Positions 4,391-46,142 of a stretch of DNA of 64,000 bases are shown in pieces; the first letter of the stretch is position 1; the number at the start of each line of letters is the position of its first letter. This stretch comes from Watersipora subatra (taxonomy: Eukaryota > Bryozoa > Gymnolaemata > Cheilostomatida > Watersiporidae): positions 11,588,869-11,652,868 of the forward strand of contig NC_088711.1 of the NCBI RefSeq assembly GCF_963576615.1, in the 5' to 3' direction. Under the pieces are notes generated by a model that saw only the letters and a program-made list of their open reading frames with translations, was not told where the DNA came from and searched no databases. The translations under genes and the position numbers were made by a program.

Positions 4391-4444
4391 ATGGTTTTGC
4401 GAAAATGTTACACTATCGCAATAATGCTTTGCACTATTCTTGGG
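4391..4444 (+). CDS. Gene 1 exon 1: signal peptide
   Basis: Eighteen codons from ATG end in GGG before the donor gtgaga. The encoded MVLRKCYTIAIMLCTILG has a basic start and a hydrophobic core, as expected of a signal peptide. The exon ends in phase 0, exactly as the first exon of the paralogous gene 2 does. Confidence 0.55.
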
Positions 4445-7400
4445 GTGAGATATTCTCTATAGTTTTGTGACACTATATATAGTCTAACACATCCTTATAC
4501 CTCAACTAGTTAAGAATGTTTAACTCTACATCATAATTTACCTGTGCTGATAGCTACGGGGTATCTTAAACACTGGCATGCTGAAAATTTTTTCCGATTC
4601 CTTTATGATTAATGCAGTCTATGTATGTTAGTTTATGTATTTGTAAAGCATATGAATCAGTGAATGAATGATACGTATTTTAGTTTTGCACTTGCTGTCT
4701 CCGCAGCACTGCTTATAGTTGGAGACCTACCTCAGACAACCCTAAACAAGGTAACAATCATTACTTATTTTAATTAGCCATTTTGTTCACCATTGATCTT
4801 TGTTTATAAAAAAGCGTTGTCTATATATACAAATTTCTGTGTTTGTCTGTTTGTTGGTCTGTCTGTCGTGTGTCCAGTTACAGCGATTAAAATCTAGAAA
4901 CAAAAAATCCATTTTGCACTGGAATTGACCTCGGAACCTCCAGTTCTGGAGGCGGGTAGAGCTCACCTATTAAGTTACAATGGCTATTTGCGATACGATG
5001 GATTAATCACGCTCATAGTCATTACATCGGTTAAGATATGTGTACCATTGTTGTGAGTCATTAGAACTGGCTTCTTACTATAGTGAGTTAAACAGTATAC
5101 TAGCATAGTTTACTCAAATCTGCCAATTGACCAATTTGCGAAGACATGGTAAAACTTAGCCAATGGCAACTACATTACCTGCCACTGTTTATAAGCTGTT
5201 TTTATTACCCGTGCAAAGTCAGGCATTCAGTAGTACATACATAAAGCCAACTTTGCATTGTTTTACTGATCAGCTTGTGTGAGACTTTTCTTATCCACTA
5301 GGAATCTGTTCGTGACACTGTAAATTGGTTGCAGGTGCTAGGGTTACTGTGTGATGGCATTTCTCTCTACTCGATTGTGAACTCCATCTGCTACCTAAGT
5401 CATCGTACATTTAGTGTTTTGACATTATTTGTTGAAATAATTAAGAAAAACACAATAATTTACCGCTGGTTTGTATTTATCACAGATCGGTGCAAGACAT
5501 TTTATGGCACCAACTGGTCTCGGTTGGTCACCTTTGACGCTGGAGAGCATACTTCCTGCAATCGATATAAAACAATCCTTCCAGGTAGGTTTTGAGATAT
5601 GTCAGTGAATAAATTGATAGTTTTCCATTCATTGACTTGAGTATAAGAAAGCTAATGGTGGCAGCTGTTACCATATACAGCCATACCTCGACCTCGGAGT
5701 TCTGGGACTGAGCTTGTATGTCAATTTTCTCGTATCTCAAAACGATATTTCCTATATAAAATAACTAAATACAAATTAACCTGTTCCCATACTATGAAAA
5801 ACCACCTTAAAACAGCATATTGCGATGAAAAAGCGTGTGGTTTAATTTCTGTAATTAATTACCTACATTCGCACTAAGAAACAAATATCCATTTAGTAGT
5901 TGTGATCTGCACTAAATTGTAACATTACTATGTACAGTACTGTATGGAGTTCTTACCTTCAAGATGGACATAGTGGCTAACTGCGGTGTGAGCGAGACTT
6001 GACAGCAACGCGTTCAGTACACTAAACTTTTGTGACGCTACGTAATATAACTTTGATTTTAACCTAAATGAATTTAACTTACTAAGCACACATAAAGCTA
6101 AGCTTTATTCTGTCACTAAACTCAACTATAATTTTTTCTTCATTTTAATTTTGTATTATCTTTTTTCTGCCTCGAGGCTCTTTGCCTCATTTTACTATAA
6201 CTTTAGGCCGACTTTTTTAAAGCTTTTTCAAACTAATTCGACGAAGCGACTGAGTGATGCTCTTCTCAAAGCAGCCTCTCGCGTACTTGGCCACTTTGTG
6301 GTTGCATAGAGAACCGGCTCGTATGTCAAAGTTTTTTCATATCTCAAGGCAAAAGCTGGTTGAAGTTTAACTCTATTTCAATTTTGATGTATGTTGAGGT
6401 ATGACTATAATGTGGAGACACATACCTAGAGTGAACAAAACTAGTGAATAAGATTGCTGAAACATTAGGCAATGGATCTCCGCTGAAGCGACAATAGAAC
6501 AAAAAGTCGAACATGGTATAATAATATAAATAGTTGAGTGGTTGGCTACTCGCTGGAGTTAATGTTAATCTATACATGAAATAAAAAGGGATAAGAAATA
6601 AAATATAAATACGGAGGAGTAGATGGAATAAATACATGTTGTTTGATTAGTGTAATGAATTTAAAACTATGTATAAGTCTACAAAAAAATTCTTATAAAA
6701 AACAACAATTGTAATTCCAGTAGTCATTGGAAATTTATGTGCAATAACACCTGCACATCAAATGTGGTCCAACTACCGGCAACAATCACCAAAAGTCAGT
6801 TACAGAAAAGTATGCCAAACTCCCAGGCCTCTGGTAGAAGACCCGAGCTTGGGTCCCACTTGGGTTAACCAAGGATGAGAAAATAATTTATGTATATAAA
6901 TAAAACAGCTAGGAAAGTTTTGATGAGGTGTGAGTCCAGATAACCCTCCCCGTTTTGTTTTTAACTAGGCTTAGTTTGATATTCCTTTTCAGATGAACTA
7001 GGCATAAGAGGTTTGTAAGCTAATAGCCCGTTTTTAACTATTCGTGTCATAAAATTTACCTTTGGTGTGAGCACCCATCCCTCACTTCTCTTCCCATCCT
7101 TGTGTCATGCATGGAATAACTGTGGCTATAGAAAAACCTATAATAATGAAGGATAATTGTATAGCAAAATAAATATTTATTCATTTATTTATACTTGGCT
7201 ATTTTGAGAAACTACTATCTATCAGCATTGTTAGCCTTGGCTAATGAGTAAGGTGCCCCACTTCTTTGTAGTGTTTGTTTATAGCTTGCTCAGGAAGAAT
7301 CTGCTGATTCATGCTTTTTCTTATAGTCATCGCAAGCTTTCTGGGAAAGTTGTCTTGAAATCTATGGAAGTTTACTTTCCTTTCTTACATGTTGCACTGC

Positions 7401-10400
7401 TCTAACCTTGAAATAGCCTTCTTGCGCTTAGCTATTAATTCTCTTATTCTTATCTAATCTTTGAGGGCCTTCCATGTCCTTCCCTTATCTGCCCTTCTGT
7501 TTGTGTTTAGTTTCAGTACACAAAGCCATGCTTTACACACTTACTGTATGTTTGAATCATTTGTAGAGAGCAGAGCCTCACACAACATAATATAGTCGGT
7601 ATATTAGTTAAATATACCGACTATATTATGTAATGTAAGTGCAAAGCAATGTTCTCCATGAATTATTCAAACATCGGTAATTGTTGTAAAACATGGATCC
7701 GTGTACTAAGGCTAAAGGCAAACAAGAGAGCAGATAAGGGAAGGACCAGGAAGGCTGTCAATGATTAGATAAGAACAAAGGTATTAACAGCTAATCGCAA
7801 GAGGGCTATTTCAAGGTTAACATTATTAACATACCATAAAACCTCTATTTGAACACCACCTTTATTTGAACGCCATCTCTATTTGGCTGCCATTTACACA
7901 TTCCTTGATCTTTACAACCCATAATAGCAAGTGATTAGTAGAAGTATCCATAAAATTGTACTAACCATGACTCTGGTTACTTGAATAAAAATTAATTTTT
8001 TGAATCGTTGTTTCTGTTCGAAGTCTGTTTTCCAACTCCTAAGCTTTTTGGTTTTTTGTTAAAACTTTTAAAGCAACATCATGGAAATAAAAATAACTGT
8101 ATCAAGCTAATAGTAGTTCCTCATTTAACACAGTTTTGATACTTCGGTGTAAGTGAAAAACTATTTACATTTACGATGGAATCTGTGCTACTTGTTTTAG
8201 GCTAAAAGTTTTGCTTAGCGCGCATCCTGCTCAATGTTTTTCATTATTGTTGCGAAAAGCAACGCGTAAAGGTTTTGCTCGGCCAAAAATTTGTTTGGAC
8301 GCTAATATCAACTAGTTCAGCAATGCAGAAGAGTTGACGTCAGAAGACATTGTGGATGGTGTTGAACAGGCAGACAAAGATTAAATGTTTCCAAATGGAA
8401 TCAACAATCATAATGCAACTGGCCGAGCAAACGGTGCAAATATTTTTGTTTCAAAAGTGTTAATTTTTGTTTATGCATGTATTATAAGTATGGTTTGTTA
8501 ATGTCGCTTGTTCTTGAATATGTATTTATAGTATTTAATAGATTATTATATAACTTACAAATTTGAGAATTTATAGTATATTATTCGGCAGCATCATTGC
8601 AGTTATCTAAACTCAGCTTTCAATCGATCGTTGCTTATAACTTCTGTTCTATTGCACATAAAAAACAGTTTTGATTGTAGACTGTAGAAAACATATCAAT
8701 GAGTGCAATTAGATTTCATGCAACATTGGTAAATATAGTTATAAAATAAAAATATGCTCTCAAATTTAAAATGAAATAAATAATTGAAAGCTCCAACTTA
8801 TTTCAACACAGAACGCAGGTTATAATATCATCGCACAGGTTATAATATCATCGCGTGTTAATTGCAAGCAATAGATATCAAGTGGTAGAGATAATAATCA
8901 GCTTCCAATGAAAAGTTGGAGGTAAGTTAGCAGATTTATTGCATCCATTGTATGAGTAGGTTTACATGAATGATAAATTATTAAATTTCTCATTCTTTCT
9001 GGTTCTCCTCCTCTAAAAAATTTTTATACTCCGCCTTTGAATAGGTCATGCATGAGCTATAAAATTATGTAGCTTGTTGATCACGAGACAATCTTGAATT
9101 TATAGGATGAGTGAGTCTTTGATGAGTTATTTTATTTTTGTGCTGTACCCAACTGAAAGAGATTGAAATTTTTTAACAGTTTGTGCTAAGTTCAAAAGTA
9201 AATTTTATGTTGAGCACTGCATCAGTATTCTAAAAAGTAATATCCTTTTTAGTTACATTGGTGGTATGTTTACACTGAATTACTTAAGATTTTATTCCAA
9301 CTTTGTATTGGTAAAAATATTGCAACCACTTCAGCTATTTATGACGAGTTTTGTTCAGAGTTGGGTGTAAATATCCTAAAGTATGCGGTGTGTGTAGCCG
9401 AATAAACTAGCTATTAGAAGGAATGGATTTTTATGTGTGCATTGTGACCATATAGGCCTACTGCTGTCTTATAAAATGATGCGCAGTGGTTGAGCACTTT
9501 AGTTTCTCAAGGGATGATATAGAAGACTGCCCGCTTGTAGAACACTTCCAAAAAGATTCTCTCTCGTGGTACACTCGATGAAGAGCCCCAATCTGGGTTT
9601 CTCCGAGTGGTCCATACAGCCGGTTGAACTTTTGAGCATGATGTTCTGTAATGGTTTTACTAGACGTTGAAAATCAATTCGTATCAAATAGTGGCTTAAG
9701 GCTCAAGGTAGTAGTAAGATTTGAAAAATATTCAAATAACGTTTATATTAAATTATTATATAAATATCGTATTTTCTTTTTCTGTCGACGCCTGCCATTA
9801 TTTTTTAACACGAGGATTAAACTAGTATACAGTTAATTAGAAAAGGGCTTTATTTCCTAAAGAATACAAACAATATTGTACACTTGTAAATTAGGTGCTC
9901 TGATGTATAATTCTTTGATATAGCAAAACCATTTTTATTGTTACTTTACCATACAGACAGGAGAATCGGAGTATTAATTCGGCAATACATAAGTTTGGTA
10001 ATAGAGGCGATAAACTTAACTTACACAGCCTAATTTACTCCAACTTGTATTACACATAATTTATATTAACTCCATTTGTATATTGTTCTAGCTGAGCATA
10101 TAAGCAGCATAAGTGTGTGCATTATTATTCCGTAGTATGGCAAGGATAGCATAGTGTAGTGGGTCAGCTCGCTGGTCTGCAGACCTGGGGGTTCTAAGTT
10201 CGAATACAGTGTGAAGCAGATGTGTAATGAGTATGTGCAAAATTATTCTTGGAAGCAGAAAGGTGGTCGAGTGGTGCAGATGGTGGTGTTCATGGCCGGT
10301 GATCTGAATATCTTGGTTTGGTTCCCGTGCAGTTCCATCTTTTTTCTTAACGCTTTTAGCATGGACGGACGCGGCTCTTATTATAGTAAAAATGATTATT

Positions 10401-13400
10401 TTTATGCTTTATTTTGAATTGTAATTTTTTATTGCAAAACTGTAACGCTTTAAAAAAAGTTTGCACAGTTATGTTTGGAAATTGTACGCTGAGATGAATA
10501 TTTTGTGCAACCGCATTGTATGCTGATGAATCTGTATGTGACAGTCTGAAGTCAAGGTTCATCTGTAGAAACAACAACCCTGCTACTTAATTCAGACAAT
10601 CTAAGGTATACCAACCCTTAATCCACAATGATGGGATTTTTTTATTATTCCAACTGTGTGCAGCTTCGAGATTTTTTAAATTGTTGACACGGGCTGAGAC
10701 CAGCTACATTTATCGATGCTCAGAGTGTGCTGACAGTGTTCTCATGCATGTATGTACAATATGTTTGAAGTCGTCAAATGGCTTTTCTCTATTGGTTTTC
10801 ACATTGGTTTTTATTTTCAAAACAGTCGCCATTTGAATGTAATAAAAATATTCCACTGTTTAGATATAACATACAATAGTTTATTAATGCTGCTATCTGC
10901 TTAAAAGCAATGACACCAAACTATACAGTAATCAGTTTCATGTTTTTGATTTATGTGCCGGTAAGAAAATGTACAAATGCTGTTCACTAACTAGACAGCT
11001 TAACCGCTGTCAATACATTTCTTAATTTAAGCGGATGAAGAAAAATTTATAGTGCTGCTAAAAATAGTAATGTTCTGTTTAGTATTATTAAAATAAATTT
11101 GATAAAACCAGTTTGAACACCACAATGGAAAAACATCGCTGACTTTTGAAAGATTACAACTAATAATGTTAGACGAAAGCATGCATTAGCCTTAAATTCC
11201 GTAGTAACAATAACACAATAACAATAATAAATAACAATAGGCTTTGGTGTAATAAGAGCTGAGTCTGTCTGTCTTTCTGAAGCCACGCTAAGAGCAATAG
11301 AAAGAAATACCTCTCACAGGAATTCAACTCGGAATTACCTACCAGTGCGCTAACCACTATCACTGCAACCTTGCCATGAATTAATTATGCACATAGTGAT
11401 CATTCATTATAGTCTCTCATGGTGCACTGTACTGCCAAGCATACTTACTAGTAATAATAATCATAACATGTTTACATTTAATCTGACCTATTGTTTGTCC
11501 ACAAGAATGCCAAATTATTGTAAACAATTTCATTAATAAATTTTATTTATTATCGGAAGTTGATCTGTTTGTTGCCCAAATCATTTAATATTTAAATCTC
11601 CCGATTAGTAATTTCCAAAATTTAAGAATTCATTCATATCTTTAATAAAATGTATTAAAGAATTAAACTCAAGGAACTGTTTCTTTGCGGTTATTGAAAT
11701 TTGTAGTGAGTCATTATTGTTTGGTCATTCCAAATTTTTGTTTATTGACTCGAAAGCCACAATCTGATGCACTGATCAGGAATTCATCCATATTTCATTT
11801 CACAATCTTAAAGGCCATAGCGTTATCATGAGAACTACAATGAAAGATTCTCACCAGTCCAAGTCTAATTAAAAAAACTTTTCTCAATTGACAGCATGAA
11901 AGACATTGTGAGTGAGTTTTACAAAGACAGACTATGGCATCTTTGTTGTTGGAGTTGGTAAAGCATATATGTTTATTTGTTATTATGTTATTTGTTTATT
12001 TATTACTGTTTACTATGTTTATGTAAAGGAATATGTTTACTTGTAGATTCTATGGTAGAGGGGTTCTGTGCTCAGGGAAAACTCTTCAATTTGGACATTT
12101 GTGACTGTTCGTATGCTCGCCAGGTCAACTCCACAACTTGTCGTACCAATCCAGCTTACTCTGTGGACGACCTGCTGGCACAACTTCTAGCACGCTATAA
12201 CAGCAGCGTAGTCAAAGGTGAGTGCTGATCATGACTTACTGCTAACCTTCCTGAAACCTAAACTGAAACTGTGTAAAAAAGCTTAGTGACCAGACAGTAA
12301 ACCTCATAATTGTTTTAAGGTCGGGTGTATGGTACAGATTCTTTACATGTAGGGGATATGTGTGTAGGGTATGCGTAAGGGCTATACATATGGCATTCAG
12401 TTTCATATCGTGTGCCTCTACCAATCATAGATGTAAGGTGCACACTGGTCAGCACAGACTCAGCTAGGCCTCGTTGGCAGTGGCTAAGTGTATGCCTCGC
12501 AATGCACCATAGCCCAAGATCTAAGCTTTATTATACCAAAAGCGATCAATAGCTCTGTATAACAAACAGATTTTGGGTGAATACCAAAAATGTATTTAAT
12601 GGATTCACTAGCTAGTCATCCTCTGATCGATAAAGTTAGTGCACGTCAATGGAATGCCACTGAGTTTGGAGAGTAGAAGATAACTACAAGTTGATGGCTC
12701 TATGCAGGCCTCAACTATTACTAATTTTAATACCGTCTCTCATTGTCACTCATTGTTACGGTAGATGTTTTCTTACTTTATCCTAAATGGGCTCACATAG
12801 GAAATCTAAAAGGACTCAAAAATTTTGCTTGCGTTTAATAAAAGCTATAAATAGAAGCATATACATTAGTATTGCTGTCAGCAAAATTAATTATTTACTG
12901 ACAAGCAAGACAATGTCGTATATCTTTAAGGATGATTAAGTTTGAAACCAGATGCTATTTTAGATTTGACCTTTGACCTAATATTCGCTTCTGGCCAAGA
13001 AAATGTTTAGAAATGCTGTCAATAAACTAAATGTTTCAAGAAGTTGAGGCAGTCACGCAATCATTATTAGTTGAAAGTTATGAATTTTTTTAATATCACA
13101 GAATAATTTTTTAACATCTTCTTAAAAGTATTGAGTAATTTATATTATTTCAAATCGATGTCTCCAACATAATGAAATTAGGACCACTTTGTATAGAATC
13201 ACAACTACTTGTCCCACATAAGGAGCAACGAGTCAATGAGGAGTTGTTTCCTCATTGAAACTCGTCCAGCACTCTTGACCTACCTTCTTTTACTTTTTTA
13301 TAGTGCGACCTTTTAGGTCAAGGACATTATTCTTGGACGTATTTTCTGATAGGGGAGGGCTCAACAGATATTTCACACAAAAAATATTGCCCTTAACAGT

Positions 13401-16400
13401 CAGATGAAATGGCCACACTGACATTTTAACAATACTCATAAAAATCCTAGTTGATTCACACAGCATTAACTCATCACACGAAGTTTAAAGTTTGGAAGTT
13501 TTTGAAGGCTGCATTCTTTTTTTGCATCACATACATTGTGCTTTGTGGCTTAGTGTCGTCTGAAATGTGTTAAAATCATCATTATGTCAAATGACTGTAA
13601 CTGTGGGGTGGTAAGCACACAAGGCTCTCCAAAGTGACCAATTTAAGATAACATTCATTTACAAAAAAACATCCAAATCAGCAAATTCTTTCAGAATTCA
13701 TTCAAATGTGGATATTGCATTAGCCTGTGTAGCAGCGGAATCGAAACACAAAAGCACCCATTTGTCGATATGAAGATGCACCCTGGATCTTATGCACCGG
13801 TTTGCACCAATTTTTCAGTGGACTGTCAGCCTCTGCCAACTGAGAACTGGAGAAATGTTCGCTATACCAGTGTTGGCTCCCAGAGATGTAATAGTAGTCA
13901 CACCATAAAGTGGCAGCTGAACACTGGCGGTAAGTTAAGTTGTTTACCAGAGATTAATTTCATCAGCTAAGCTTGTGGTCTGTTATAAATATAACTTACG
14001 TTTTAGTGGTAGATAACAGCTGCTCCTAAATATTTTGTCACTTTGAGAAAAATGTTTTGATTGATATACCTGCCCAGATAACTGGACATCTAAAAGAACA
14101 CTATCAAACAACGCACTTTAACATTACATGAAATATACTCTATACAGAACAAGCCATTTCTCTAGTTTTCAAACTGGATGAATTGAGCTGAATACATGTC
14201 GAAAGATTAACTGAAGAAAACCAATAAAAGGATTTTCTTATCAAGTTTATTGTTCTTAAATCAACTACTGATCTAGGATTTATTACAGCATAAAAGCTTT
14301 ATAAAATGTAAGGATTCCATTACAAAGTTGGAGTTTTGCTTAATTTCTGTTGTGAACAGCTCATATATCTAGAAACAAATAACCTCTTGCTTGAAACTCA
14401 TCCATGTTCGATGACTGATATTTTATGGTTTACAAGTGACTATTTGTTTGCCTAATCCTTTTGACATTCCTTCCCTGAGTTTCCACGAAAATTTTGATGG
14501 CCTGTGCGGTTTTTAGTATTTAACATAGCAAACATTTTCATGGAAAATTCCTTAACTTACTGTATGTCGGAAATTATTCGCCTGGTATATTGAATAATAT
14601 TTACCGCATGCTCTCGGAAATGGCAATTCTACTAAGGCTCACATCAAGTATTAACTAAAGCCTGTGTTATATAACAATAATGGCCGTTTTTTAACAATAA
14701 TTTAATTCTTAATATAACTTTTTAGCAATAACTGTTTTTTAAATAAATGCTACTCCATTACTAAAATTATTTTTTATTTGTTTGAACAGATAAATTAAAC
14801 AAAACAAAATTTTCTTTTGTTTTTATTCACATAAATATGCCAATGTTTAATACACAAAGAGCTCATTCAGCTTATGGAGGCTTAGTGATTGATGTACTAG
14901 TTTATATCTGCCGCATATCTTCATTCCCTTCCTTAACTATGTCTAAAAATCTGATTGTGCGGAGACGGTGATAGCGTTGCAAGTATATATTTCAATAACC
15001 TTCTGTGTAGCACGGATGCTTCTTTGATCAAGTACCAATTATCATGTGTAGTTGGACTAGCAGTTGTGCTTTCACAGGCATTCCAACAATGATGGAAAGA
15101 CAACTCTGTATGATACTGATTACTATTAGTTTACACATATTAGCATTGATTCAGTTAAAAAGATTGTTTTTAGCTATTTTTTAAAAGTGTGCAATGTTAT
15201 CGTTTTTTTTCTGTTAACGCTATTTATTTGCCTACCGAATAATGGATCTAAGATGGGTCTGCCTTATAACCATAAATAATTTTACATAACAGAACTCTAT
15301 TGTTAAGAGGCATATTTAGACCATGAAGCAACAATTTTTATATTTTACATGAAATTTAAAAAACATTACATACACTGTATATACATATTTACATGCACGC
15401 ATGCATTTATCTATGTATGTACATACATACGTGGATACGTAGATAAGGTATATATTTAAATACATAGATACTTCGATACATAGGACACATACTTAGATAA
15501 GGTAGGCTCCTCGCTTCTGATGTCAACTCAGTCTGTTAGATTCTTTTGCTCACCAGATCTGTTAAAGTACATTTGCTGCTTCCTAAAGTGTTGATGAATA
15601 GTACAAATCTTTGAACCATATTTTAGTTGTTATATAAGAGTCAAATTAGTTAACCACCCGCTGGCTATCACCATAGGTGGTCATCATCTTGTGTCTATTA
15701 AATTTACCTAGGAGCCTTTACTCAACGGGAGTTTTCTGCCCTGTCTTTATTTTTATAAAATTCATCATCTTTAAAGTAAATTATTCCAGTACAACATATC
15801 TGTTGACGTTGGCAAGTTTTCAGAGAATTGCTGTTTTTATGGTAGCATTAAAAATGGACTTTTTACTGTTAACAACATTAATAAGCTGAATATAATATTA
15901 GGATATTACATGTATTAGGATATTGCCATTTTGAAGCTAGCATTATATATGTCTACAGGTATTATACATTATCCTGATATATGTTATCCAAATACTAATA
16001 CATAGTATTTGCATAAAATTTAGTGTCTCTTTAACTTCGAACAGAATATAAAGGAATGTTTTTGTAATATTCAAGATCACAAGATATCTTTAGGTTTTAA
16101 TAATAGCTGTTCATTGAAATATCATGTCTCAAAAACCTGAGCTTTAATTTAAAGATTAGTAAAAGATGATGAAATTGATTGGTTGTGGCATGATGGCTGC
16201 AATACATTAGCTATTAGTTTAAACATTTCTATGGGTAAATATGTATTTACATGTATATCTAAAGTTTGAAACCCCCAATTAACTGTACCTAGCTTTTAAA
16301 GAACAACACACATAATTAACGCAGAGAAAAAGAAAATGAAATGCGGCTATACCACATGTTGTTAAGGCACTACCTTATAGCCTATTCTAACAAATCTAAC

Positions 16401-19400
16401 ATACTACTCAATTATTCATTTTTCAATTTGAAAATTGATAGTGCTTTTCATAGAATATTTCTAATAGTCGTTTTCAGGAGTTTTTTTATTCTATAATGCG
16501 TCTCCAAATCCAGTGACCTCTGGCCACATATGCATGTGTGCGTCCATCTTTCATTAGTTCTTGCTCTGCTTTATCTCTGCTTCATTATGTCTTGCTACAA
16601 GTTAGTCTGATACTCTATGCATTACAGCTAATTCTTGTTAGCTTCTCATACATGCTGTAATCATGAACCTGTCATGTATGCTGTAATCATGAACTTGTCT
16701 CATGCCTGCTGTAATCATGAACCTGTCATATATGCTGTAGTCATGAACCTGTCATGTATGCTGTAATCATGAACCTGTCATGCATGCTGTAATCATGAAC
16801 CTGTCATATATGCTGTAATCATGAACCTGTAGTGTATACTGTAAGCATGAACTTGTCAGTTGTAAGCACTGCTTTGTTTATATAGGTCAGAACACCATTT
16901 ATAAAACTTAGTTTATATAGGTCAGAACACCATTTATAAAACTTTGTTTATATAGGTCAGAACACCTACATAACGAAAGGCTACTTTTGTCCTGCTAATC
17001 AACTATTCAATTTTGACCTCTGCGATTGCTGGCAGAAGGAGGTGACAAACAGCACAACGTGCCGCACTAAACCAGGATATGACATCATGAACTTGCGTGA
17101 GCTACTTACAGAAAAGTACAACAACTCTCAGCAACTGGATAAGACTATAAGTATGTACTATAGATGTGTACTATGTATGTGTACTATAGATGTGTACTAT
17201 AGGTGTGTACTATAGATGTGTACTATAAATGCTTACTATAGGTATGTACAATAGGTGTATACTCTAGGTGTCTACTGTCGGCGTGTGCTACAGGTGTGTT
17301 TTGCAAGTTTATATTAAAAGTGTATACTGTATAGTAATACTTCAACTTACGAGTGCTCTAACGTACGAGAAACTTGAGATACGAGCCACCTTTTAAGCAA
17401 GTTTTAGCACTAACATACGAGCCATGTTTGAGATACGAGCACGTGAGTCAGTTGCCAAGTATGCCGGAGGTGTTTTATGAGAACAGCATCACTCTGTATT
17501 TTTCAACTGCTCAGGTTATACTATTGTACCGTGTTTTTTTGTGCGATTTTCAGTGCAGAATTATGTGAATTAAAAGTACTCTGCGTTGACCGAAAGTTTG
17601 CCAGTAAAATGAAAGATAATGCAAAGAAAAAGCGAATGATAACAGCTGATACTAAACGGAAAACTATTGAAAAATATGCAAAATGTGTATGCGTGATTGA
17701 GCTAGCTCAGCAATATGACAGAAATACATCCACAATTATCAAACCGAAGGATTATATTTAGGGCATTTAGTTCGCAAAAGGACTGGCCATAGTTTCTAAA
17801 TGGCGCAGCGATCTTCACGACCGCTGATGGAGAGACTGCTCAGGCATTGGATAAACAATTGGCCGGTGAAAGCGTAACTGAAACGATGCTATATGAAAAG
17901 GCCGGTGCTATCTAGCAAAACTATAAAAATAGACATTTGGACAAGTTGGCTAGTGGTCGTGCATTAACCTTTTGTGACGACATCTGCGTTCGTCCTAATT
18001 GCAACATGTTGAAAGGGCGACAAAGGCAAACGTCTTTAGATAGGATTATCTTTAAACGGCCGGCTAATCATGAAAGCGAAACAAAGGAAAAATTAGCTAA
18101 CTAGCGAGAAACTTCAAACTACGAATGCCGAAGAAATTTTAATTACGTTAAGTTAAAAATGAAAGTTTGCTTTTAGGTTTGCTTCTACGTTTGTCTTTTA
18201 AGACATTGATAAAATCCAAATTTATCAAAGTCAACTGTTGTAATGAAGGATAACTTATATATCCCTCTCTGTCAAATGCTAGCGTTAGCTGCTATTGTAT
18301 GTATTTAATTTTACATTTTAATTAATCACATTTCCTTACAATATTTTTTAATTGTTGCTTTTTGAAAGCCTTTGGTAAATTAGGACAATAACCAACATGT
18401 TCTTTCTGTTACAATATCTTGTTTTGAGTGTTTTATTTGCATTTTCTAGAGTATGGAAACCAATCAATATATATTTACTTGTTCTATATATAAATAAATT
18501 GCACCAACATGCGAGTAAATTAACATACGAGCTCAGTCTCGGAACGCATTAAGCTCATAAGTCGAAGTATGACTGTACTGTACTTTTTTACTGTACTCCA
18601 CTAGACATATATGCCATGACTGTGTATTATAAACGTGTGCCATAAGTGTGTATTAGGCTATATTATATATATTATTATATTGCAACACATTATAGCACTT
18701 CTATTGTTGCTACATAGACATAAACATTTGGAGCTCTAGTTAGATAAATTCATTTTGCTTCTCTGTCTTTTTACATTTGAGTAATTCTATATACATGTAT
18801 ATACATAAACTGTTTTGCACACGAATTAATGTAAACTTGCATTTATCTACAGTGTTTGCGCGTGTGTCTTAGCCGTAACATTCCATAGTTGTAAAATTTG
18901 TTCTTTGTTGCAGAAATGTTCAAAAACTAATCCATGAGAAACCAGAAAAAGGAATAGTTACCAACCAGTAGTTGGTGTGTAATACCTGTGCCGACATCTG
19001 AACAACGAGTCAGCGCCATTATTATCACTATAATGGCACTCAGTTTTACTATATTTATATTTGTGCATTCACAATGTCGAGGCTACACGCTGCCTTACCA
19101 TACTCTCTCTATATTTTTATTTCTTGTTTCCTTTATGTTAATCAATGTAATAGAGCTTTGCAAGTTAAATGTTAATACTGTATTCCTTGATGTATTCAGG
19201 TATGAGCTAACTTCCATGTCTTTCCTTATAAGAAATGTTTGTATAATGTCAATGATTTAAATCCTTCTTCTCGTTCTGCCAGAAAAGGAAGTTATCAGTC
19301 ATTTTGTTTATAGACATATAATCCATTTTTTATATAAATGGTGACTGACATTTATGTCATCGGCCAATATTTTATAATTTTAGTAATGGTATGGAAATCA

Positions 19401-28400: not shown

Positions 28401-31400
28401 GTTTATCAGCAGTCAACAAATTGCATCAAATTCATTTAATAGAAGCGTTTATCAGCAGTCAACAAATTGCATCCAATTCATTTAATAGAAGCGTTTATCA
28501 GCAGTCAGCAAATTGCATCCAATTCATTTAATAGAAGCGTTTATCAGCAGTCAACAAATTGCATCCAATTCATTTAATAGAAGCGTTTATCAGCAGTCAG
28601 CAAATTGCATCCAATTCATTTAATAGAAGCGTTTATCAGCAGTCAACAAATTGCATCCAATTCATTTAATAGAAGCGTTTATCAGCAGTCAACAAATTGC
28701 ATCCAATTCATTTAATAGAAGCGTTTATCAGCAGTCAACAAATTGCATCCAATTCATTCAATAGAAGCGTTTATCAGCAGTCAACAAATTGCATCCAATT
28801 CATTTAATAGAAGCGTTTATCAGCAGTCAGCAAATTGCATCCAATTCATTTAATAGAAGCGTTTATCAGCAGTCAGCAAATTGCATCCAATTCAATTAAT
28901 AGAAGCGTTTATCAGCAGTCAGCAAATTGCATCCAATTCATTTAATAGAAGCGTTTATCAGCAGTCAGCAAATTGCATCCAATTCATTTAATAGAAGCGT
29001 TTATCAGCAGTCAACAAATTGCATCCAATTCATTTAATAGAAGCGTTTATCAGCAGTCAGCAAATTGCATCCAATTCATTTAATAGAAGCGTTTATCAGC
29101 AGTCAACAAATTGCATCCAATTCATTTAATAGAAGCGTTTATCAGCAGTCAGCAAATTGCATCCAATTCATTTAATAGAAGCGTTTATCAGCAGTCAGCA
29201 AATTGCATCCAATTCATTCAATAGAAGCGTTTATCAGCAGTCAACAAATTGCATCCAATTCATTTAATAGAAGCGTTTATCAGCAGTCAGCAAATTGCAT
29301 CCAATTCATTTAATAGAAGCGTTTATCAGCAGTCAACAAATTGCATCCAATTCATTTAATAGAAGCGTTTATCAGCAGTCAGCAAATTGCATCCAATTCA
29401 TTTAATAGAAGCGTTTATCAGCAGTCAGCAAATTGCATCCAATTCAATTAATAGAAGCGTTTATCAGCAGTCAACAAATTGCATCCAATTCATTCAATAG
29501 AAGCGTTTATCAGCAGTCAACAAATTGCATCCAATTCATTTAATAGAAGCGTTTATCAGCAGTCAGCAAATTGCATCCAATTCAATTAATAGAAGCGTTT
29601 ATCAGCAGTCAACAAATTGCATCCAATTCATTTAATAGAAGCGTTTATCAGCAGTCAACAAATTGCATCCAATTCATTCAATAGAAGCGTTTATCAGCAG
29701 TCAACAAATTGCATCCAATTCATTTAATAGAAGCGTTTATCAGCAGTCAGCAAATTGCATCCAATTCAATTAATAGAAGCGTTTATCAGCAGTCAACAAA
29801 TTGCATCCAATTCATTTAATAGAAGCGTTTATCAGCAGTCAGCAAATTGCATCCAATTCAATTAATAGAAGCGTTTATCAGCAGTCAACAAATTGCATCC
29901 AATTCATTCAATAGAAGCGTTTATCAGCAGTCAACAAATTGCATCCAATTCATTTAATAGAAGCGTTTATCAGCAGTCAGCAAATTGCATCCAATTCAAT
30001 TAATAGAAGCGTTTATCAGCAGTCAGCAAATTGCAACTAATTCATTTAATAGAAGCGTTTATCAGCAGTCAGCAAATTGCATCCAATTCATTTAATAGGA
30101 GCGTTTATCAGCAGTCAGCAAATTGCATCCAATTCATTTAATAGGAGCGTTTATCAGCAGTCAGCAAATTGCATCCAATTCATTTAATAGGAGCGTTTAT
30201 CAGCAGTCAGCAAATTGCAACCAATTCATTTAATAGAAGCGTTTATCAGCAGTCAGCAAATTGCATCCAATTCATTTAATAGGAGCGTTTATCAGCAGTC
30301 AGCAAATTGCATCCAATTCATTTAATAGAAGCGTGTATCAGCAGTCAACAAATTGCATCAAATTCATTCAATAGAAGCGTTTATCAGCAGTCAGCAAATT
30401 GCATCCAATTCATTTAATAGGAGCGTTTATCAGCAGTCAGCAAATTGCATCCAATTCATTTAATAGAAGCGTTTATCAGCAGTCAGCAAATTGCATCCAA
30501 TTCAATTAATAGAAGCGTTTATCAGCAGTCAGCAAATTGCATCCAATTCATTCAATAGAAGCGTTTATCAGCAGTCAACAAATTGCATCCAATTCATTTA
30601 ATAGAAGCGTTTATCAGCAGTCAACAAATTGCATCCAATTCATTTAATAGAAGCGTTTATCAGCAGTCAACAAATTGCATCCAATTCAATTAATAGAAGC
30701 GTTTATCAGCAGTCAGCAAATTGCATCCAATTCAATTAATAGAAGCGTTTATCAGCAGTCAACAAATTGCATCCAATTCATTTAATAGAAGCGTTTATCA
30801 GCAGTCAGCAAATTGCATCCAATTCAATTAATAGAAGCGTTTATCAGCAGTCAGCAAATTGCATCCAATTCAATTAATAGAAGCGTTTATCAGCAGTCAG
30901 CAAATTGCATCCAATTCAATTAATAGAAGCGTTTATCAGCAGTCAACAAATTGCATCAAATTCATTTAATAGAAGCGTTTATCAGCAGTCAACAAATTGC
31001 ATCAAATTCATTCAATAGAAGCGTTTATCAGCAGACAACAAATTGCATCCAATTCAATTAATAGAAGCGTTTATCAGCAGTCAACAAATTGCATCCAATT
31101 CATTTAATAGAAGCGTGTATCAGCAGTCAGCAAATTGCATCCAATTCATTTAATAGAAGCGTGTATCAGCAGTCAACAAATTGCATCCAATTCATTTAAT
31201 AGAAGCGTTTATCAGCAGTCAACAAATTGCATCCAATTCATTCAATAGAAGCGTTTATCAGCAGTCAACAAATTGCATCCAATTCATTTAATAGAAGCGT
31301 TCATCAGCAGTCAGCAAATTGCATCCAATTCAATTAATAGAAGCGTTTATCAGCAGTCAACAAATTGCATCCAATTCATTTAATAGAAGCGTTTATCAGC

Positions 31401-34470: not shown

Positions 34471-34511
34471 TTATTATATTATTATATTATTATATTATTA
34501 TATTATTATAT
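34471..34511. repeat. 8-bp (TTATTATA)n microsatellite
   Basis: Five perfect units. Confidence 0.85.
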
Positions 34512-38383: not shown

Positions 38384-38500
38384 AGGCAGCAGCGACAGCA
38401 GCAGCGACAGCAGCAGTGACAGCAGCAGCGACAGCAGCGGCAGCAACAACAGCAGCACCAGCAGTGACAGCAGCGGCAACAGCAGCGGCAGCAGCGTGTA
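38384..38500. repeat. CAG-rich trinucleotide tract
   Basis: Interrupted CAG repeats (cagcagcgacagcagcagtg and similar) 320 bp upstream of the gene 2 ATG. Open on both strands as alanine-rich frames, but these look like by-products of the repeat. Confidence 0.85.
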
Positions 38501-38819
38501 TTAAAATTGAGACGAGAGCATGAAAAACTATCTTCAGTTTCTTGACACAGAGTGAGCCCTGTCTATTTATATCTATTACCTTCTCTGATATTGTAATAAA
38601 AAATAGTTTGACTTCTATCAAAAAGCAATCAGCCATCAATATTTGTTAGTTTACGCAAGGAAGCCGCAACTCTTTGCTGTCACCTCGTGACCTTATTGTG
38701 CAATGCATTATGGGAGGAATAGTTTGCCATAAGAAAGATAAAATCAAAGGGCACATTTAATATGTGGTCAGCGTGAGAAAGAAGAGGCAGCTTTGAGATT
38801 TAGCTAGCTTGTAGCAATC

Positions 38820-38879
38820 ATGGCTTACCAACATAGCATCAATGCTTGCATCCTAAGTGTAATCGCTATTCTTCTTCAG
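38820..38879 (+). CDS. Gene 2 exon 1: signal peptide
   Basis: Twenty codons from ATG, with a hydrophobic run ILSVIAILL, end in CAG before donor gtatga, in phase 0. The layout equals gene 1 exon 1. No TATA box is obvious upstream. Confidence 0.55.
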
Positions 38880-41800
38880 GTATGACACGGTTATTTGTTT
38901 ATTGAATGTTTATAAAATGTTTATATTATTAATCACTACAAAATTTAATCATGTAGCTTTTATAATAATTTTGCTGCAATGCTACTTTTCATAATATCAT
39001 GATCATTTTTCATGATTTAGGAACAAACCTTGATTTGACTATGGCTTGTAGACAGCAAAATTTGTTAAGGATTTGCTGTCTAATTATTTAATAGTTACAT
39101 GCTGCCAATGATAAAAGATGTATGTATAACTTATTATTGGCACTAGTAATCCTAAAAAAAATGGTGTTTTTCGGTATGTGGCAAAAAATGAAAAGACAGA
39201 AATCAGGAATTATTGAGTGAGTTGAACAGAAGTGTTTTAAAAGTTGGCAATCTAATAGTATTATGGAAGAGTCGGGATAGTGAATTGAATTAAATGTTGT
39301 AGCAACAGAAAGTTCATAAACTGAAATATAAAATGGTAGATATAGTATGTTGGTGTCATGACATAGATAATGATGTTTGTCATATTTGTGTAAATATAAA
39401 TAAAAATATTTTACATTTTTTATATTTAAATATATTTTATATGGTAGATCATATAAAATAAAACCTTACAAAGTAAATGATTTAATGCATTTTAAAAATC
39501 CAACTATAGAACCTGTTATTACCTATAAAATGTATTGTGACGTAAATTATGTGTTGCATTGCAATATGTTTACAGGTGAGCTGGATTTTAGGAGAAACAA
39601 GCTCTCAGACTAGAATAGGTAAGATGTTAAAACCAGCTTATACAACATTTTTATTATTCTTTGTATGTTTGAGCCAAAGTTACAAAACGTTATAATATCA
39701 GGTATTCTTGAACATAAATACATACATGTTACTCAACAAGCTTATAACTTTCTAGCTCATTAATATTAGTAAATTATTATTTTGAATTTTAATACACAAG
39801 TAAGAGGTTATTGAACTATAGAGACATGGCATAACATTGAATTAACCAAAATGTAACATTATATTGTCTCATTCATACAGCTAGAGTTAGCCCATTCTGA
39901 TTTTTGCAGGTTTTTTGTAAATTAATGGTAATTAAACACTCTCTAAGGCTAGAGTTTCACACTCTAGTTGACCTGCATATCTTTCAAGCTATCATCTGAC
40001 ATTCCATAACCTTTTTGAAGCAGGTGATACTGCGTGTCAGCTTTTTGTCCATCACGTAGACAGTTAAAAGAGTTATTTTTCAGTCAATGACCTATACGAA
40101 CAAAAGGGTGGCCGTAAGATTCCAAAACCTCCAAGTCACAAGAGCTTTAATTGAGCATTCGAGTAATTGATAGCTTGAAGCTTATAACGAAACAACTCGG
40201 GTCATACTTGACTTCACTCCGCCAAGGCCAACTCATGCTTCATATTAGTCACCATGTTTTTACGATGGATTAATCGAAAGATCCACTAGATAAAAACAGC
40301 AAAAGCTCAAATGTCACGACAGTGTTGTTACTAGCAAATATTTATCACATGTTTCATGCTTGTGAAAGATGGATACAAATGTGGATGGAAGTAATGCGCA
40401 AGAAAATGTCATCCAAGCTATTCAGTTTTTCCTAGTTTAATTTGAGCAGTTCTCCTTGCGCTGCTATGACCTCTGGCATAAGATTCCTTATTTCCTTTAA
40501 CAAAAAACGGTTACTTTGCAGTATGCGACTGCTCACTGAAACACTTGTTGCACTGCAACTCATAGTGTGCACAATTCCAAATCCGAAACATTTGCTCAAT
40601 AGAAAAATAGCAATCAATTACAATAGTCATGTTTTTACAAGTGTTCAATTCAGCTGTGATTCCAGTACAACAAATAAAACTGTGCATCTCAAAAGCCAAA
40701 AATGAATTAAACAACATTAATGTTATGGCTTCACTTCTGGCTGTTTCTGCCTCATGCAAACCTCGGATACTTTAGTCAAGGTTTGTGACCTTTAGAAGCT
40801 TCATTTTAGTTACATGTGGACATTACTCCTTCTCTTCCTCTTCATTCATTAAAACTTATAATATATATTATTAATAAAATATATATAATATAATAATGTA
40901 ATTATAGTAAATAATTAATATATAAATTGTGATATTTAATAATAATTATATATTATTATATATTTATAATATATAATCATTTGTTTAATTATATATTTAT
41001 AACATATATAATAGATATATAATAATTATATATATTTTTAATATAATTGTAGTATACAATCTATAAATCTGTTTGTATTTTTGTCTTTTGGGCTTTTTAT
41101 CCTTCTGTCTCTCCATTAAGCCCTGTTCCCTCTTAAAGCAGGTAAAATCTGACAATGAAAAATCTGCACAGCACTGGACTTGATCTCATGACCTCCAGAG
41201 TTAGAGATGGCAAACTTAACCATTAAGCTACACATTATAGAATGAACCCACTGTATTCCATTACTCAATTCAATGTTTTCATAGAGCAAATAGTCATTGC
41301 ATTGATCAAAATACTCACATTTGACGCACTTTCTTGGGGTTACTATGTATGTTAGTATGTGGTTATTGTGTCCGTAAAGATTTTAGTAAAGATCTAGCTT
41401 TCCAGGTAAGTTACTCAAATTTCTTAGGTGATTCTTCTATTACCTGTGCAACGCCGAGCATTTGACTACTATAATTATATTATATATTATTATACTATAT
41501 ATTATTATATTATCCATTATTATATTATTTCAACTCCAAAAGAGAGCAATAATTTTTGAGATGAATTTTTCTGAAAGCTATATAGTTCAAGCTACACCTA
41601 CATCCCTTTCAGGTAGCTACATGCATATTGAGGTCAGCGGTTTGACTCCACTGACACCAGTTTATTCTTCATGTTTATGTTGTTTCTCTTGTTTATTTTG
41701 TTTCTCTTGTTTATGTTACAGTTTCAGAGCAGTGCCAGGTAATTTATGACATCTACAGAGTCGACTACACAATTATCTTTTCTTATGATGAACCCTGCTC

Positions 41801-44357
41801 AGTTCACTTCCTGTCATACACAGTTGAACCAAGTAAGACTTCAAACTATTGATTGCTATACAATTTTTAGAAAAGCCTAAAAAATTGACTGATAATATTT
41901 GAACCGCAGATTGAGAATAAACTATTACTGATTGGATGTTAATAATAGTAATAATAATAATAATAATAGTGTATGTAATAATAATAGTGTATGTAATAAT
42001 AATAATAGTGTATGTAATAATAGTAAAAATAATAATAATAGTGTATGTAATAATAATAATAATAATAATAGTGTAGGAACAGCTCTCATTTTGAGGAAGG
42101 TCCTCTCTTAGTGGAGTTGAGGAAGATGTTGAATCCTTTGGCCTTTTGTTAAGACCCGGACTCAACATGGACAACAACCAGTCACCTACCATCACACGAC
42201 TGTGAAGAAAAACTTTTACAACAAATAATAGTGTATGTAATAATAATAATAATAGTGTATGTAATAATATAATAGTGTATGTAATGATAATAATAGTGTA
42301 TGCAATAATAATAATAATGTATGTAATTGCGTTTAAATAACAGCATCTATATAAATCATGTTTAGAACTGTACATCACTCTGATTTGCAACTGAAAGTAT
42401 TTCCTTATTAGCTCAGTGATATACTAGTGCTTTATTTATGCTATACCATAATATACATACTATATATAGTACATAGTAAAGCTATAGTAAAATATATCTA
42501 TTCATACTATATATACTATAGGCCTACAATATATTATACTTTTGCTCACACTAAAAGTGAGCCATTTTACTACATTTTACTATACAGCAAATTATAGAGA
42601 ACGCGATCACTGCATAAAATGATAACTACATTAATATAGTGCATATCTAGTTGTTTTGAACTGTTTTGTGAAATCTTTTGAATGCAAGCATAAGGTGCCA
42701 CTCTGCTATAGTTGCTTATCAATGGTTCATTAGTTGAGATGATGCCCTTTGCGATACGCCCATAGAGGAGGTGCATTTTGATCAGGAGTAATTTCCTTGT
42801 GGAATCATTTTTAATTGCTTGGTATGCTTGGGCATGAGGGGCATAGCAGGTCAATGACACATACAGCTCTTTAATAGACTTAAGCCTATCTGACTGAAAA
42901 CTTTAATTGATTGCTGTTTTTATGACGGTTTATCTGCAAGTTTCCGTCATCCGCAAGATAGACACGGCAAAACTTTATTGAATGTTTCTTGCTTACGAAA
43001 GAAAGAAACTGCACTTGCAAATGATGCACAAGAAAATGTCACGCAAGCTATTTCATTTTAAACATTTTCTAATCTTCAGTTGTTCCTATTTTGAAAGTGT
43101 GCTGTTAAACATGACAGGAGTGCTGCACTATGATCTCAGGCGTAGAATTCCTTATCTTTTTTAACAAAGTGCCAGCATTAATCCGCCACATGTGAATGTT
43201 CATTGAAACACTTATTGCATGGTAACTCAACGTGGGCACAACTCCAAACCCATATTATCCGCATGACCGAAACTTGGTGTATGGTGATGCATATTAACAT
43301 ATCAGTTTCTTGTATCCTAGATTTCTGTAGAGCCTTGTAAGATTGTCTAATATTAGCTACAAAAAAGGTTTCTTCTATCGACATAATTATGGGTTGGTGA
43401 ATGCTGAATTGAGCTTTTACTGTATGCATTTTTTGAAAAAATAAAGTCAGCATTGGTAGTAGAGGAAATATGTAGTCAGAAGTACAAAGGGCTCACTTGA
43501 GTGACAAATCTAAAATTGGTTTTGCCATAAATTCATAAAATTCCTCATGCTGCTTAGTTGATTACTGTCAATTAATAAATAAAGAAATAGCCGAAATTGT
43601 TTTGGTTCATTGAGATGGTAACACTTTTTTGAATTTGATGAGTTTTTATAAGTAAATTCTATTTTCACTGAGTTTTCAAGAACGCTAAAAATGGTCTTCG
43701 ATTTGGAGTGATTTAGTCTCTTCAAAAATATTGGTTCAGCTGCTATGTGGCTGTCCCTCCACAATCAGGAGACTTGAATATTCTGGATCTAAGGCTTGTC
43801 TGTTCTCCACCATCATCAAAAGATTTCTTTTCACTAAATTAATATTTTCATCAAAGATTTCATCATATTTTAGTATGAGCAGTTAAACCAATGAATGTAA
43901 CAGCCAGTTACCAGTTTAAGATAACGCTAAAACAAGTGAAACTAAAAGTTTTGCTATATTTTAAGATCGCTATTGCTCAAGTAACATCACAATGACACAG
44001 CCTACAGGTGCTTGCTGTTCTGACATTGCAGGCGGATCTCTAAAAAGCAATCGCCGTTTTTGTCCCAGCCCATCTACTAAGCTGTTTAACCTTGACACCT
44101 GCCAGTGTGAACCTCGACACACTGTTGACCCAGAAACATGCCGGACAAAGGCTGAGTACTCCCAATACCCTGTGCGACATGTAATGAATGAACGAGCACT
44201 AGTACCAAGTACGTTACTACCTGTCAATTTATCTATATATCTATATATATCTATATATATCTATATATATATATATATATATACAACAAACTTTAAGATT
44301 TACATGTATATATATATATATAGCTAGAGCTATATAGCTTGGAAAATATCTATATAG

Positions 44358-44390
<33 letters not shown>

Positions 44391-44415
44391 TATTTTCCAA
44401 GCTATATAGCTCTAG

Positions 44416-44447
<32 letters not shown>

Positions 44448-44481
44448 CTAGAGCTATATAGCTTGGAAAATATCTATATAG

Positions 44482-44553
<72 letters not shown>

Positions 44554-46142
44554 CTATATAGATATTTTCCAAGCTATATAGCTCTAGCTATATATATATA
44601 TATATATATGTGTAAATCTTAAAGTTTGTTGTCATATGTCCAGCTATAGTGATAAAGTTCCAGTTTCAGTCATTCAGTTCCAGTGCGAAGCAGATTTTTT
44701 ATTCCCGTTCCACACGAAAGCTGAACTCAGAACCTCCAGTTGTGCAGACATGCGGGCTATCTACAACGCTATGCTGTCCATGCCATACAATGGAATAATT
44801 GTGCTCATACTTATCACACTAGTCAACATTTAAACCTGATTTTTTACAACCGACTATGATTGTCTAGAGGTCCTCTACATGATTTGTGCGTTTACAGCAT
44901 AAATTTTTTTAGAATGTGATTTATCTTGGTCATTCTGCAGCTCTATCAACCCTAACTAGTGCTGACAAGGTTTATGCTCAAATAGATCGACAGTCAGACT
45001 AAAATTAATACTGTCAAATCTCGTCTTGCGATCACCTCGAACTTTGAACCTAGAATTTGAGAAAGTATTTGTCTCAACAAATAAATTAATTTTTAACGTA
45101 TGACAACAAAATTTGCTCAAAGCAGTAAAATCTTGAACATAAAAATAAAAAAGTGGTAAAAATTTAAAACATTTAACAAATGGAAATATTTTTGCATATT
45201 TTAGCAGTATCTTAGCTACATACAGAGAAGAGTTGAAAATGAGGTACTTTGGTTCTGGCCATCACTGTCTTTTTTATTCAGTTATAGGCACCGATGCTGT
45301 ACTTGCGCTGTCCATAAAGTTTCACTATAAAAAACCTACAAAATTGCTACCTCCTAAGATAAAACTGCAGAAAATCATTGCACTTAACGAAGAACATATT
45401 TTCTAATATCTTATGCCAACAGTTCTACATCCTAAAAAAGAATCGGTAACTGTGCATATGACAACTCGGTAGCTGAGTATCTCAGTAGCCTATCCAATTA
45501 TCATATGACTATTGGTTGACCTCTGATTGACCTTTGGTCAGATAGTATACAGATGTTGCACAGCTGCGATGTATTCCATATCCCATACTGGTACATATTA
45601 TTGTGTTGATGAATGTTTATTGCTGAACAATGAAACCCGAGATCAGTTGAGCTCAGTAAAGAAAATTAATAAAACGAGTTAGGAATAGATGATGCCGTAG
45701 ATCACACTCTAAACACGTGCAGGTCAGCTGCCGAGGTGAGAATCTGGAACAAATCAAAGTCAAACTATCCACTACATGACTCTTCCTACTAGCTTTAATA
45801 AGATTTTGGCGAAAAAAATCCTTTTCATCACCGCAATGCATATATTTCAGATTATCTAAACTTTTGAAGGAGTTTTACTGCTGTTAAAAAAACAACAGTT
45901 TGATGCTTTGTAAACAAAGTACCTGCTGCAGTTGTCAGTGCAAGTTCTTATCGCATTATTAAAAGAATTAAATGCTTTGCGTGTCGTCAACATATTGTAG
46001 GTGCTGAGCTGTGCAAAAGCCAAAAAGTTAAGCTTTTTGTTAACATATGACCTAAAGCAATAGAGTACAAAGCTATTATGTGTTTTCAGGTACAGCTAGA
46101 ACTCTACGGCATCGCAGACGTCTCTACAGGATGCGCAGCTAG
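38820..46142 (+). CDS. Gene 2: secreted A-B cysteine protein, paralogue of gene 1
   Basis: Predicted exons 38820-38879, 39576-39618, 41722-41832, 44032-44208 and 46090-46142 give 444 nt and 147 residues. The first two exons encode a signal peptide (MAYQHSINACILSVIAILLQ, then VSWILGE). Next comes one A module (C-x20-C) and one B module (C-x12-C-x-C-x10-C-R-T, core KLFNLDTCQC), then a short basic tail containing RHRRRLYRMRS and a TAG stop. Exon phases (0, 1, 1, 1) match gene 1 exactly, and both genes lie in tandem on one strand, so they arose by duplication. The RHRRR tail could be a proprotein-convertase site. Binding to chitin or another polysaccharide is inferred only from partial likeness to CBM14. 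Confidence 0.55.
39195..39405. mobile_element. Dispersed repeat family R3, copy 1
   Basis: Shares gacagaaatcaggaat, agttcataaactgaaa, and ggtgtca followed by a variant of cgaaatagaaa, with 55450-55635. Lies in gene 2 intron 1. Confidence 0.5.
39576..39618 (+). CDS. Gene 2 exon 2: end of signal peptide and linker
   Basis: This 43-nt exon lies between gtttacag and gtaaga, phase 0 to 1, and encodes VSWILGETSSQTRI. Signal-peptide cleavage near ILG-ET would be typical. Confidence 0.5.
40360..40600 (-). mobile_element. Dispersed repeat family R1, inverted copy in gene 2 intron 2
   Basis: The reverse complement carries the R1 markers, including gttgcagtgcaacaagtgtt and the fragments around aagaaaatgtcatccaagct. 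More diverged and possibly internally deleted. Confidence 0.4.
40855..41045. repeat. A+T-only stretch
   Basis: About 190 bp almost entirely A and T with loose TAATATAT repetition, in gene 2 intron 2. Confidence 0.8.
41054..41467. mobile_element. Dispersed element family R4, gene 2 intron 2
   Basis: Same layout as 4806-5235: T/G/C-rich ttctgtctct start, tRNA-like minus-strand core (gacctccagagttagagatg), and right end tacctgtgcaacgccgagca just before 41467. It occupies the same intron of the paralogous gene, though independent insertion is possible. Confidence 0.5.
41722..41832 (+). CDS. Gene 2 exon 3: module A
   Basis: The exon is 111 nt, phase 1-1, after a pyrimidine-rich tract ending ttatgttacag. 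It encodes C-x20-C rich in Tyr and Ile, with donor gtaaga. It is the same length as gene 1 exon 5 and has matching cysteine spacing. Confidence 0.6.
41936..42330. repeat. TAA-rich microsatellite with tagtgtatg units
   Basis: Repeated taataataatagtgtatg blocks, interrupted at 42074-42215 by unique sequence. Starts about 100 bp after the donor of gene 2 exon 3. Confidence 0.85.
42940..43260 (-). mobile_element. Dispersed repeat family R1, inverted copy in gene 2 intron 3
   Basis: The markers cgcaagctatttcatttta, cacttgcaaatgatgcaca and gtgggcacaactccaaacc are inverted matches to 900-1260. Confidence 0.45.
44032..44208 (+). CDS. Gene 2 exon 4: module B
   Basis: The exon is 177 nt, phase 1-1, between ctgacattgcag and gtacgt. 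The core is FCPSPSTKLFNLDTCQC, then ten residues to CRT, and it ends near RALVP. It is homologous to the gene 1 B exons, but the glycosylation motif before CRT is missing (TVDPETC). Confidence 0.7.
44230..44282. repeat. Tatatc/TA microsatellite beside an exon
   Basis: Repeated atctatatat units starting about 22 bp after the donor of gene 2 exon 4 and leading into the palindrome. Confidence 0.75.
44282..44634. repeat. Large nested A+T palindrome
   Basis: About 350 bp in which the outer left arm (aacaaactttaagatttaca) pairs with the outer right arm (tgtaaatcttaaagtttgtt). Inside, blocks of tagctagagctatatagctt and ggaaaatatctatatagcta recur in both orientations, separated by (TA)n. It lies in gene 2 intron 4, 74 bases after exon 4. 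Such sequence is prone to cruciform formation and assembly error. Confidence 0.75.
44636..44800. mobile_element. Dispersed element family R4, partial
   Basis: Contains gtccagctatagtgataaag and the degraded tRNA-like segment cagaacctccagttgtgcag. The open frame over it is a shadow of the repeat. Confidence 0.4.
46090..46142 (+). CDS. Gene 2 exon 5: basic C-terminal tail
   Basis: The acceptor tgtgttttcag is followed in the correct phase (A+GT = Ser) by seventeen codons ending in TAG. The peptide TARTLRHRRRLYRMRS is strongly basic. No AATAAA is close; the first seen is near 46851. Confidence 0.45.

Follow-up and report, generated by a model that had tools for sequence, protein, structure and literature searches.

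The closest described counterpart of the proteins reported here is the CBM14 domain (PF01607) of human chitotriosidase (CHIT1). According to the report on the full-length crystal structure, this domain is held by the disulfides Cys420-440 and Cys450-463 and by a third, Cys460-462, that closes a C-x-C (PMC4844120). The same report describes the Cys460/Cys462 pair as absent from tachycitin and two mite allergens and as conserved in 150 or more domains associated with chitinases or chitinase-like proteins, and it places a tryptophan, Trp465, two residues past the last cysteine (PMC4844120). The first cysteine pair, which we read from the PDB chain (5hbf and 6so0 are CHIT1 structures), is C-x19-C.

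We have analyzed a stretch of 64,000 bases (C4:11588869-11652868; hereafter the window) for which a sequence-only reading had proposed a family of secreted six-cysteine proteins encoded by alternating A and B exons, and had argued that their C-x-C pair is at odds with CBM14. The bonded C-x-C of CHIT1 (PMC4844120) overturns that argument. Because of this bond and the C-x19-C first pair, our preferred model is that the window encodes secreted proteins made of two-exon cassettes, each of which may be a divergent chitinase-type CBM14-like module that would bind polysaccharide or another matrix partner. We advance this model tentatively, as one that falls somewhat short of probable.

The window contains two tandem gene models on the plus strand (Table 1), which join in frame with GT-AG boundaries at all introns and predict products of 237 (gene 1) and 147 (gene 2) amino acids. 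Both have the same exon order: a signal-like start, a linker, A+B cassettes (two in gene 1 and one in gene 2) and a short final exon. The six A and B exons are all of symmetric 1-1 phase. The proposed alternation of two exon types thus largely holds, and so does the suggestion that the units can be multiplied by exon duplication, since a phase 1-1 cassette can be duplicated whole without loss of frame. The shared phase pattern 0,1,1,1 that had been proposed for both genes is exact for gene 2; gene 1 runs 0,1,1,1,1,1. Hydropathy shows a hydrophobic N terminus in both products, and there are six N-glycosylation sequons in gene 1 and none in gene 2. From these features we infer that both genes are spliced as modeled and that their products are secreted.

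Gene 1 exon 2 was chosen among six candidates with entry phase 0 and exit phase 1, because it has an S-W string in common with gene 2 exon 2. Two other choices for this exon were rejected: 4707-4750, whose entry phase is wrong, and 5335-5350, which is 16 bases long. In gene 2 exon B, use of another acceptor, after cctacag and 24 bases further 5', would leave the frame intact and bring in two more cysteines. The TATA-like sequence listed in Table 1 is one of three such matches within 3801-4391.

Table 1. Predicted features of the two genes, in window coordinates.
Feature	Position	Strand	Description
TATA-like sequence	4334..4339	+	57 bases 5' of gene 1 ATG; consensus match only
Gene 1 exon 1	4391..4444	+	Start and signal-like peptide MVLRKCYTIAIMLCTILG; by hydropathy
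Gene 1 exon 2	4684..4750	+	Tail of the hydrophobic N terminus plus linker; phase 0-1
Gene 1 exon A1	5486..5584	+	C-x21-C, phase 1-1
Gene 1 exon B1	12047..12217	+	C-x10-C-x-C-x10-C-R-T, phase 1-1
Gene 1 exon A2	13819..13929	+	C-x20-C, phase 1-1
Gene 1 exon B2	16956..17150	+	C-x10-C-x-C-x10-C-R-T, phase 1-1
Gene 1 last exon	18914..18930	+	KMFKN, then stop; very short and, of all parts, least certain
Gene 2 exon 1	38820..38879	+	Start and signal-like peptide; by hydropathy
Gene 2 exon 2	39576..39618	+	Linker; phase 0-1
Gene 2 exon A	41722..41832	+	C-x20-C, phase 1-1
Gene 2 exon B	44032..44208	+	C-x12-C-x-C-x10-C-R-T, phase 1-1
Gene 2 last exon	46090..46142	+	Basic tail STARTLRHRRRLYRMRS and stop

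The six cysteines of an A+B unit span 63-71 residues, exon A supplying the first two and exon B the last four. Gaps between cysteines are 21, 20 and 20 in the A exons (A1, A2 and gene 2 A), 10-1-10 in B1 and B2, and 12-1-10 in gene 2 B; the distance from the last A cysteine to the first B cysteine is 15, 24 and 21 in the three units. Judged by their sequences, the three B exons are plainly homologous. Their Smith-Waterman scores, 130 for B1-B2 and 79 and 91 against gene 2 B, go beyond chance, the maxima in 2000 shuffles with cysteines fixed being 68, 59 and 52. B1 is 40% identical to B2 and 37% to gene 2 B. Across the 48 codons that align between B1 and B2, dN is 0.55 and dS 2.45 (saturated), and the same codon is used at 9 of the 23 identical residues; these values and codon differences point to selection at the protein level. 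The B1-B2 score exceeds both scores against gene 2 B, although by identity B1 is nearly as close to gene 2 B as to B2; a single internal duplication of one A+B block in gene 1 would fit these data.

Of the two exon types that had been proposed, B therefore stands as a family, and the A exons score near chance. The A1-A2 score of 29 was equalled or exceeded by 72 of 2000 cysteine-fixed shuffles, and the comparisons of A1 and A2 with gene 2 A were at chance level (357/2000 and 925/2000, respectively). What links the A exons is position, phase and C-x20..21-C spacing rather than sequence, and their homology is not confirmed. Such scores would also arise if the exon models were partly wrong, the B exons being real and the A exons chance open stretches. 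This we consider quite improbable: all three A exons have GT-AG boundaries and 1-1 phase, differ little in their cysteine spacing and stand in the same position ahead of B. In a profile search of the surrounding 264 kb, the next A-like open reading frame had an E value of 0.38 as against 2e-13 or better, a weak control because the profile was built from the same three A exons.

Relatives of the B exons were sought in the whole genome (784 Mb, 239 contigs) with B1 and B2 as queries, and the resulting family size is a lower bound. The B2 search gave six matches, of which three were the window exons and the others were weak; the B1 search gave ten, comprising the three window exons, three on contig C10, one on C11 and three, on C78, C7 and C3, that were set aside. 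No further copy was found among open stretches of at least 20 codons up to 100 kb on either side of the window. The C10 matches are near-copies (32684547, 32718248 and 32754745) lying 34 and 36 kb apart, with E values of 3e-4 to 6e-4. The C11 relative, at 5924528, had an E value of 1.8 in the B1 search and was included because of its cysteine pattern. In local comparison, 27 residues of C10 align at 56% identity and 36 of C11 at 33%. The spacing C-x10-C-x-C-x10-C is kept in C10, C11, B1 and B2; gene 2 B has x12 as its first gap.

As we read it, the C10 exon shares the phase-1 entry of the window B exons, has an extra cysteine 22 residues before the core, and finishes either with CRS-stop or by a splice directly after CR. 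The C11 exon, taken as the last one of a mucin-like gene, reads V-KENTQC-x7-C-x10-C-x-C-x10-C and ends soon after this core. The open stretch before it, 924 codons with many Thr, Ser, Pro, Ala and Val residues, ends in HPSCPYV before a phase-1 intron; the overall pattern is C-x9-C-x7-C-x10-C-x-C-x10-C. A cysteine module placed after a Thr/Ser/Pro/Ala-rich stretch is an architecture known from secreted matrix proteins. The claim that an intron always divides A from B holds for all three window units; it does not extend to the C10 and C11 relatives, where the core exon carries an extra cysteine. These comparisons suggest that the B core is a wider module and that the clean A/B split is seen only in this window.

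Several other matches and observations came from these searches. The mucin-like frame on C11 (L046 1626-4397, plus strand) matched no Pfam family; it bears the string CDVFLKSILSELGMSYMCA, and two upstream frames have similar strings. Matches on C78 and C7 have a stop inside, and the two loci are alike over some 2.5 kb and therefore lie in a repeat. Those on C3, C2, C9 and at C10:46622587 were set aside as chance or degenerate. A join of the C10 B-like exon to an upstream open reading frame of six-cysteine repeats could not be established, as by reading the exon phases do not fit. That frame (L045 4684-5886, plus strand) runs for 401 codons and had no Pfam family over cut-off; its first repeat unit, ICTRIGCPPPPSEGCVNIGTTFPNGPNCPSCRVCND, is C-x4-C-x7-C-x12-C-x2-C-x2-C. 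Open stretches further along the same locus (8389-9445, plus strand) resemble, by eye, a transposase of the Tc1/mariner type.

CBM14 domains are present in this genome, with ten matches, all of them over cut-off. A Pfam CBM14 search at E<=10 found none in the two whole proteins, the three B exons, the three A+B units or the C11 unit. The C10 relative did touch PF01607 (E 0.034; 14.7 bits, below the cut-off of 22.1) across profile positions 14-50 of 53. We also scored the units with a CBM14 profile that combined eight domains from this genome with five stretches from the PDB, and compared each score with 2000 cysteine-fixed shuffles. The real score was reached by 73 shuffles for gene 1 unit 1 (P ~0.04), 812 for gene 1 unit 2 (P ~0.41) and 1288 for the gene 2 unit (P ~0.64); for the relatives the figures were 76 (C10; P ~0.04) and 130 (C11; P 0.07). 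Profile-profile comparison with CBM14 was not significant, with E values of 0.031 for a local alignment of 20 columns and 0.12 for a global one of 54. A profile of five units returned no CBM14 from the PDB, its three matches all being ADP-ribosyltransferase 2 (E 0.72-0.73), and a sequence search of the PDB with the gene 1 units gave a single match, at E 0.11. The sequence evidence for CBM14 in the window units is therefore weak. Given these profile tests, the missing aromatic residues and the different cysteine spacings, we say that the units may resemble the chitinase-type CBM14 domain in how they work and may be a diverged version of it, and we do not claim membership.

The earlier proposal of a secreted cysteine-rich family is upheld by the signal-like starts and by the finding that no Pfam or NCBIfam family is over cut-off for the whole proteins. 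The latter also favors a secreted six-cysteine domain that is particular to this lineage and has no relation to CBM14; the LFN-x-D-x-C-x-C string and the cysteine count would then be convergent and A and B perhaps separate disulfide-bonded pieces. The chance-level shuffle results for two of the three window units, the PDB profile search without CBM14, and the outcome in prokaryote and viral contigs, where tblastn confirmed none of 36 and 24 pattern matches, respectively, point the same way. Set against this are the number and order of the cysteines, which match chitinase-type CBM14, and the weak contact of the C10 relative with PF01607. An unrelated domain is in our judgment a real possibility, and clearly less than a probable one.

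Two known patterns resemble the B exons. The CXCXC repeat (PF03128), which occurs in Balbiani ring proteins and in the tail of VEGF-C, has C-x10..12-C-x-C with F-N before the C-x-C, as the B exons do. Profile searches, which the sequence-only reading had recommended, gave no curated family over cut-off for the whole proteins, and the isolated gene 2 B exon alone passed PF03128, at 19.3-19.4 bits (cut-off 15). B could on this evidence be a degenerate CXCXC repeat attached to an unrelated A exon, which we think improbable. Scores drop below cut-off for the gene 2 A+B unit (14.5) and the whole protein (13.4), no gene 1 B exon, unit or protein was matched, and the third close cysteine is missing; moreover, the model has only 13 positions, and nine other places in the six-frame genome score 17.5-19.3 bits. 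In Pfam scans of isolated exons, B1 had no match and B2 touched an unrelated DUF below threshold.

The second pattern is that of the EGF-like domain, to the second half of whose spacing C-x10-C-x-C-x10-C is close. Cysteine order, including the C-x9-C-x7-C-x10-C-x-C-x10-C of the C11 relative, is compatible with such a domain. The EGF pattern has a glycine between the last two cysteines, which neither the three window units nor the C10 and C11 relatives have; the window units begin with gaps of 20-21 and 15-24, and no EGF family appeared in the Pfam scans. That the units are EGF-like is, in view of this, very improbable.

Between the two genes lie a 43-base minisatellite of ~37 copies (21917-23512) and a 46-base one of ~136 copies with 96% matches (27206-33457); about 0.9 kb upstream of gene 1, at 3043-3501, a 20-base tandem repeat has 23 copies (99%). 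Downstream, 52604-58722 (plus strand) holds repeated open stretches, with ARxDFD[AN]Q in four and EKYGFR in three of these or their neighbors. From its sequence this region looks like another exon-duplication gene; one piece had no Pfam match, and the concatenated pieces had no credible PDB match (best E 0.047, to an antibody). At 55891-56499 a 304-base stretch is directly duplicated in tandem, two copies with 100% matches, which could be a recent duplication or an assembly artefact.

Returning to the CBM14-like model, the disulfide pairing, fold and ligand of the units can be proposed from CHIT1. The A cysteine pair would close one disulfide, like Cys420-440; the first and last B cysteines would close a second, like 450-463; and the B C-x-C would close a third, like 460-462. 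With this pairing, taken from the CHIT1 report, each exon would be self-contained in its disulfides, and the A/B intron would fall in the loop between two half sheets. The module, of which gene 1 has two in tandem, would bind polysaccharide or another partner in the extracellular matrix. The most likely role, given the signal-like starts, the many cysteines, the tandem units, the gene 1 sequons and the mucin-like C11 relative, is that of a polysaccharide-binding component of extracellular matrix or mucus. As the aromatic residues are missing, chitin binding itself may have been lost.

A broader statement would leave the ancestry undecided: a new secreted six-cysteine domain, derived from CBM14 or wholly new, in which each exon closes its own disulfides and the exon boundary marks a half-domain, in a lineage that duplicates the cassette and also carries the B half C-terminally on a mucin-like protein. 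Taken with all its parts, we hold this statement to be doubtful. If the units are CBM14-like, a chitin-binding module would have drifted far, losing its aromatics, widening its loops and becoming divided between two exons, with the chitinase-type cysteine frame kept, and the locus would be a small test case of how extracellular proteins grow by exon cassettes. If they are not, the genome has a secreted domain for which there is no curated model. Lineage-specific cysteine-rich families are common, so the surprise would be limited either way.

Finally, the units can be set beside CHIT1 and this genome's own canonical CBM14 domains (L001-L008). The genomic domains are also of the six-cysteine type, L008 being without the last cysteine, and in five of the eight, as in B1, a G-x-x-F-[ND] string precedes the fifth cysteine. 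Each matched stretch lies within one open frame, whereas the window units occupy two exons. A C-x5-C pair is found in all eight and is absent from the window units; conversely, none of the eight has a C-x-C at the window-unit place, although L002 and L006 have one elsewhere. CHIT1 differs in other respects. Its last two cysteines are adjacent rather than 10 residues apart, the loop between its halves is 9 residues rather than 15-24, and the window units, split over two exons, have no significant sequence match to it. Its FY before the second cysteine is unmatched at that place in all three units. The sequence-only reading held that the CRT does not suit CBM14, and in this CRT the units do differ from CHIT1: two places after the last cysteine, where CHIT1 has tryptophan, the units have threonine, leaving the Trp unmatched in all three (gene 2 has a tyrosine one place further off). 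Points of agreement between CHIT1 and the window units are a first cysteine pair of similar spacing (19 residues against 20-21), a string of the type L-[VF]-F-[NS] that lies between cysteines three and four, and six cysteines in the same order, with the C-x-C as the fourth and fifth.
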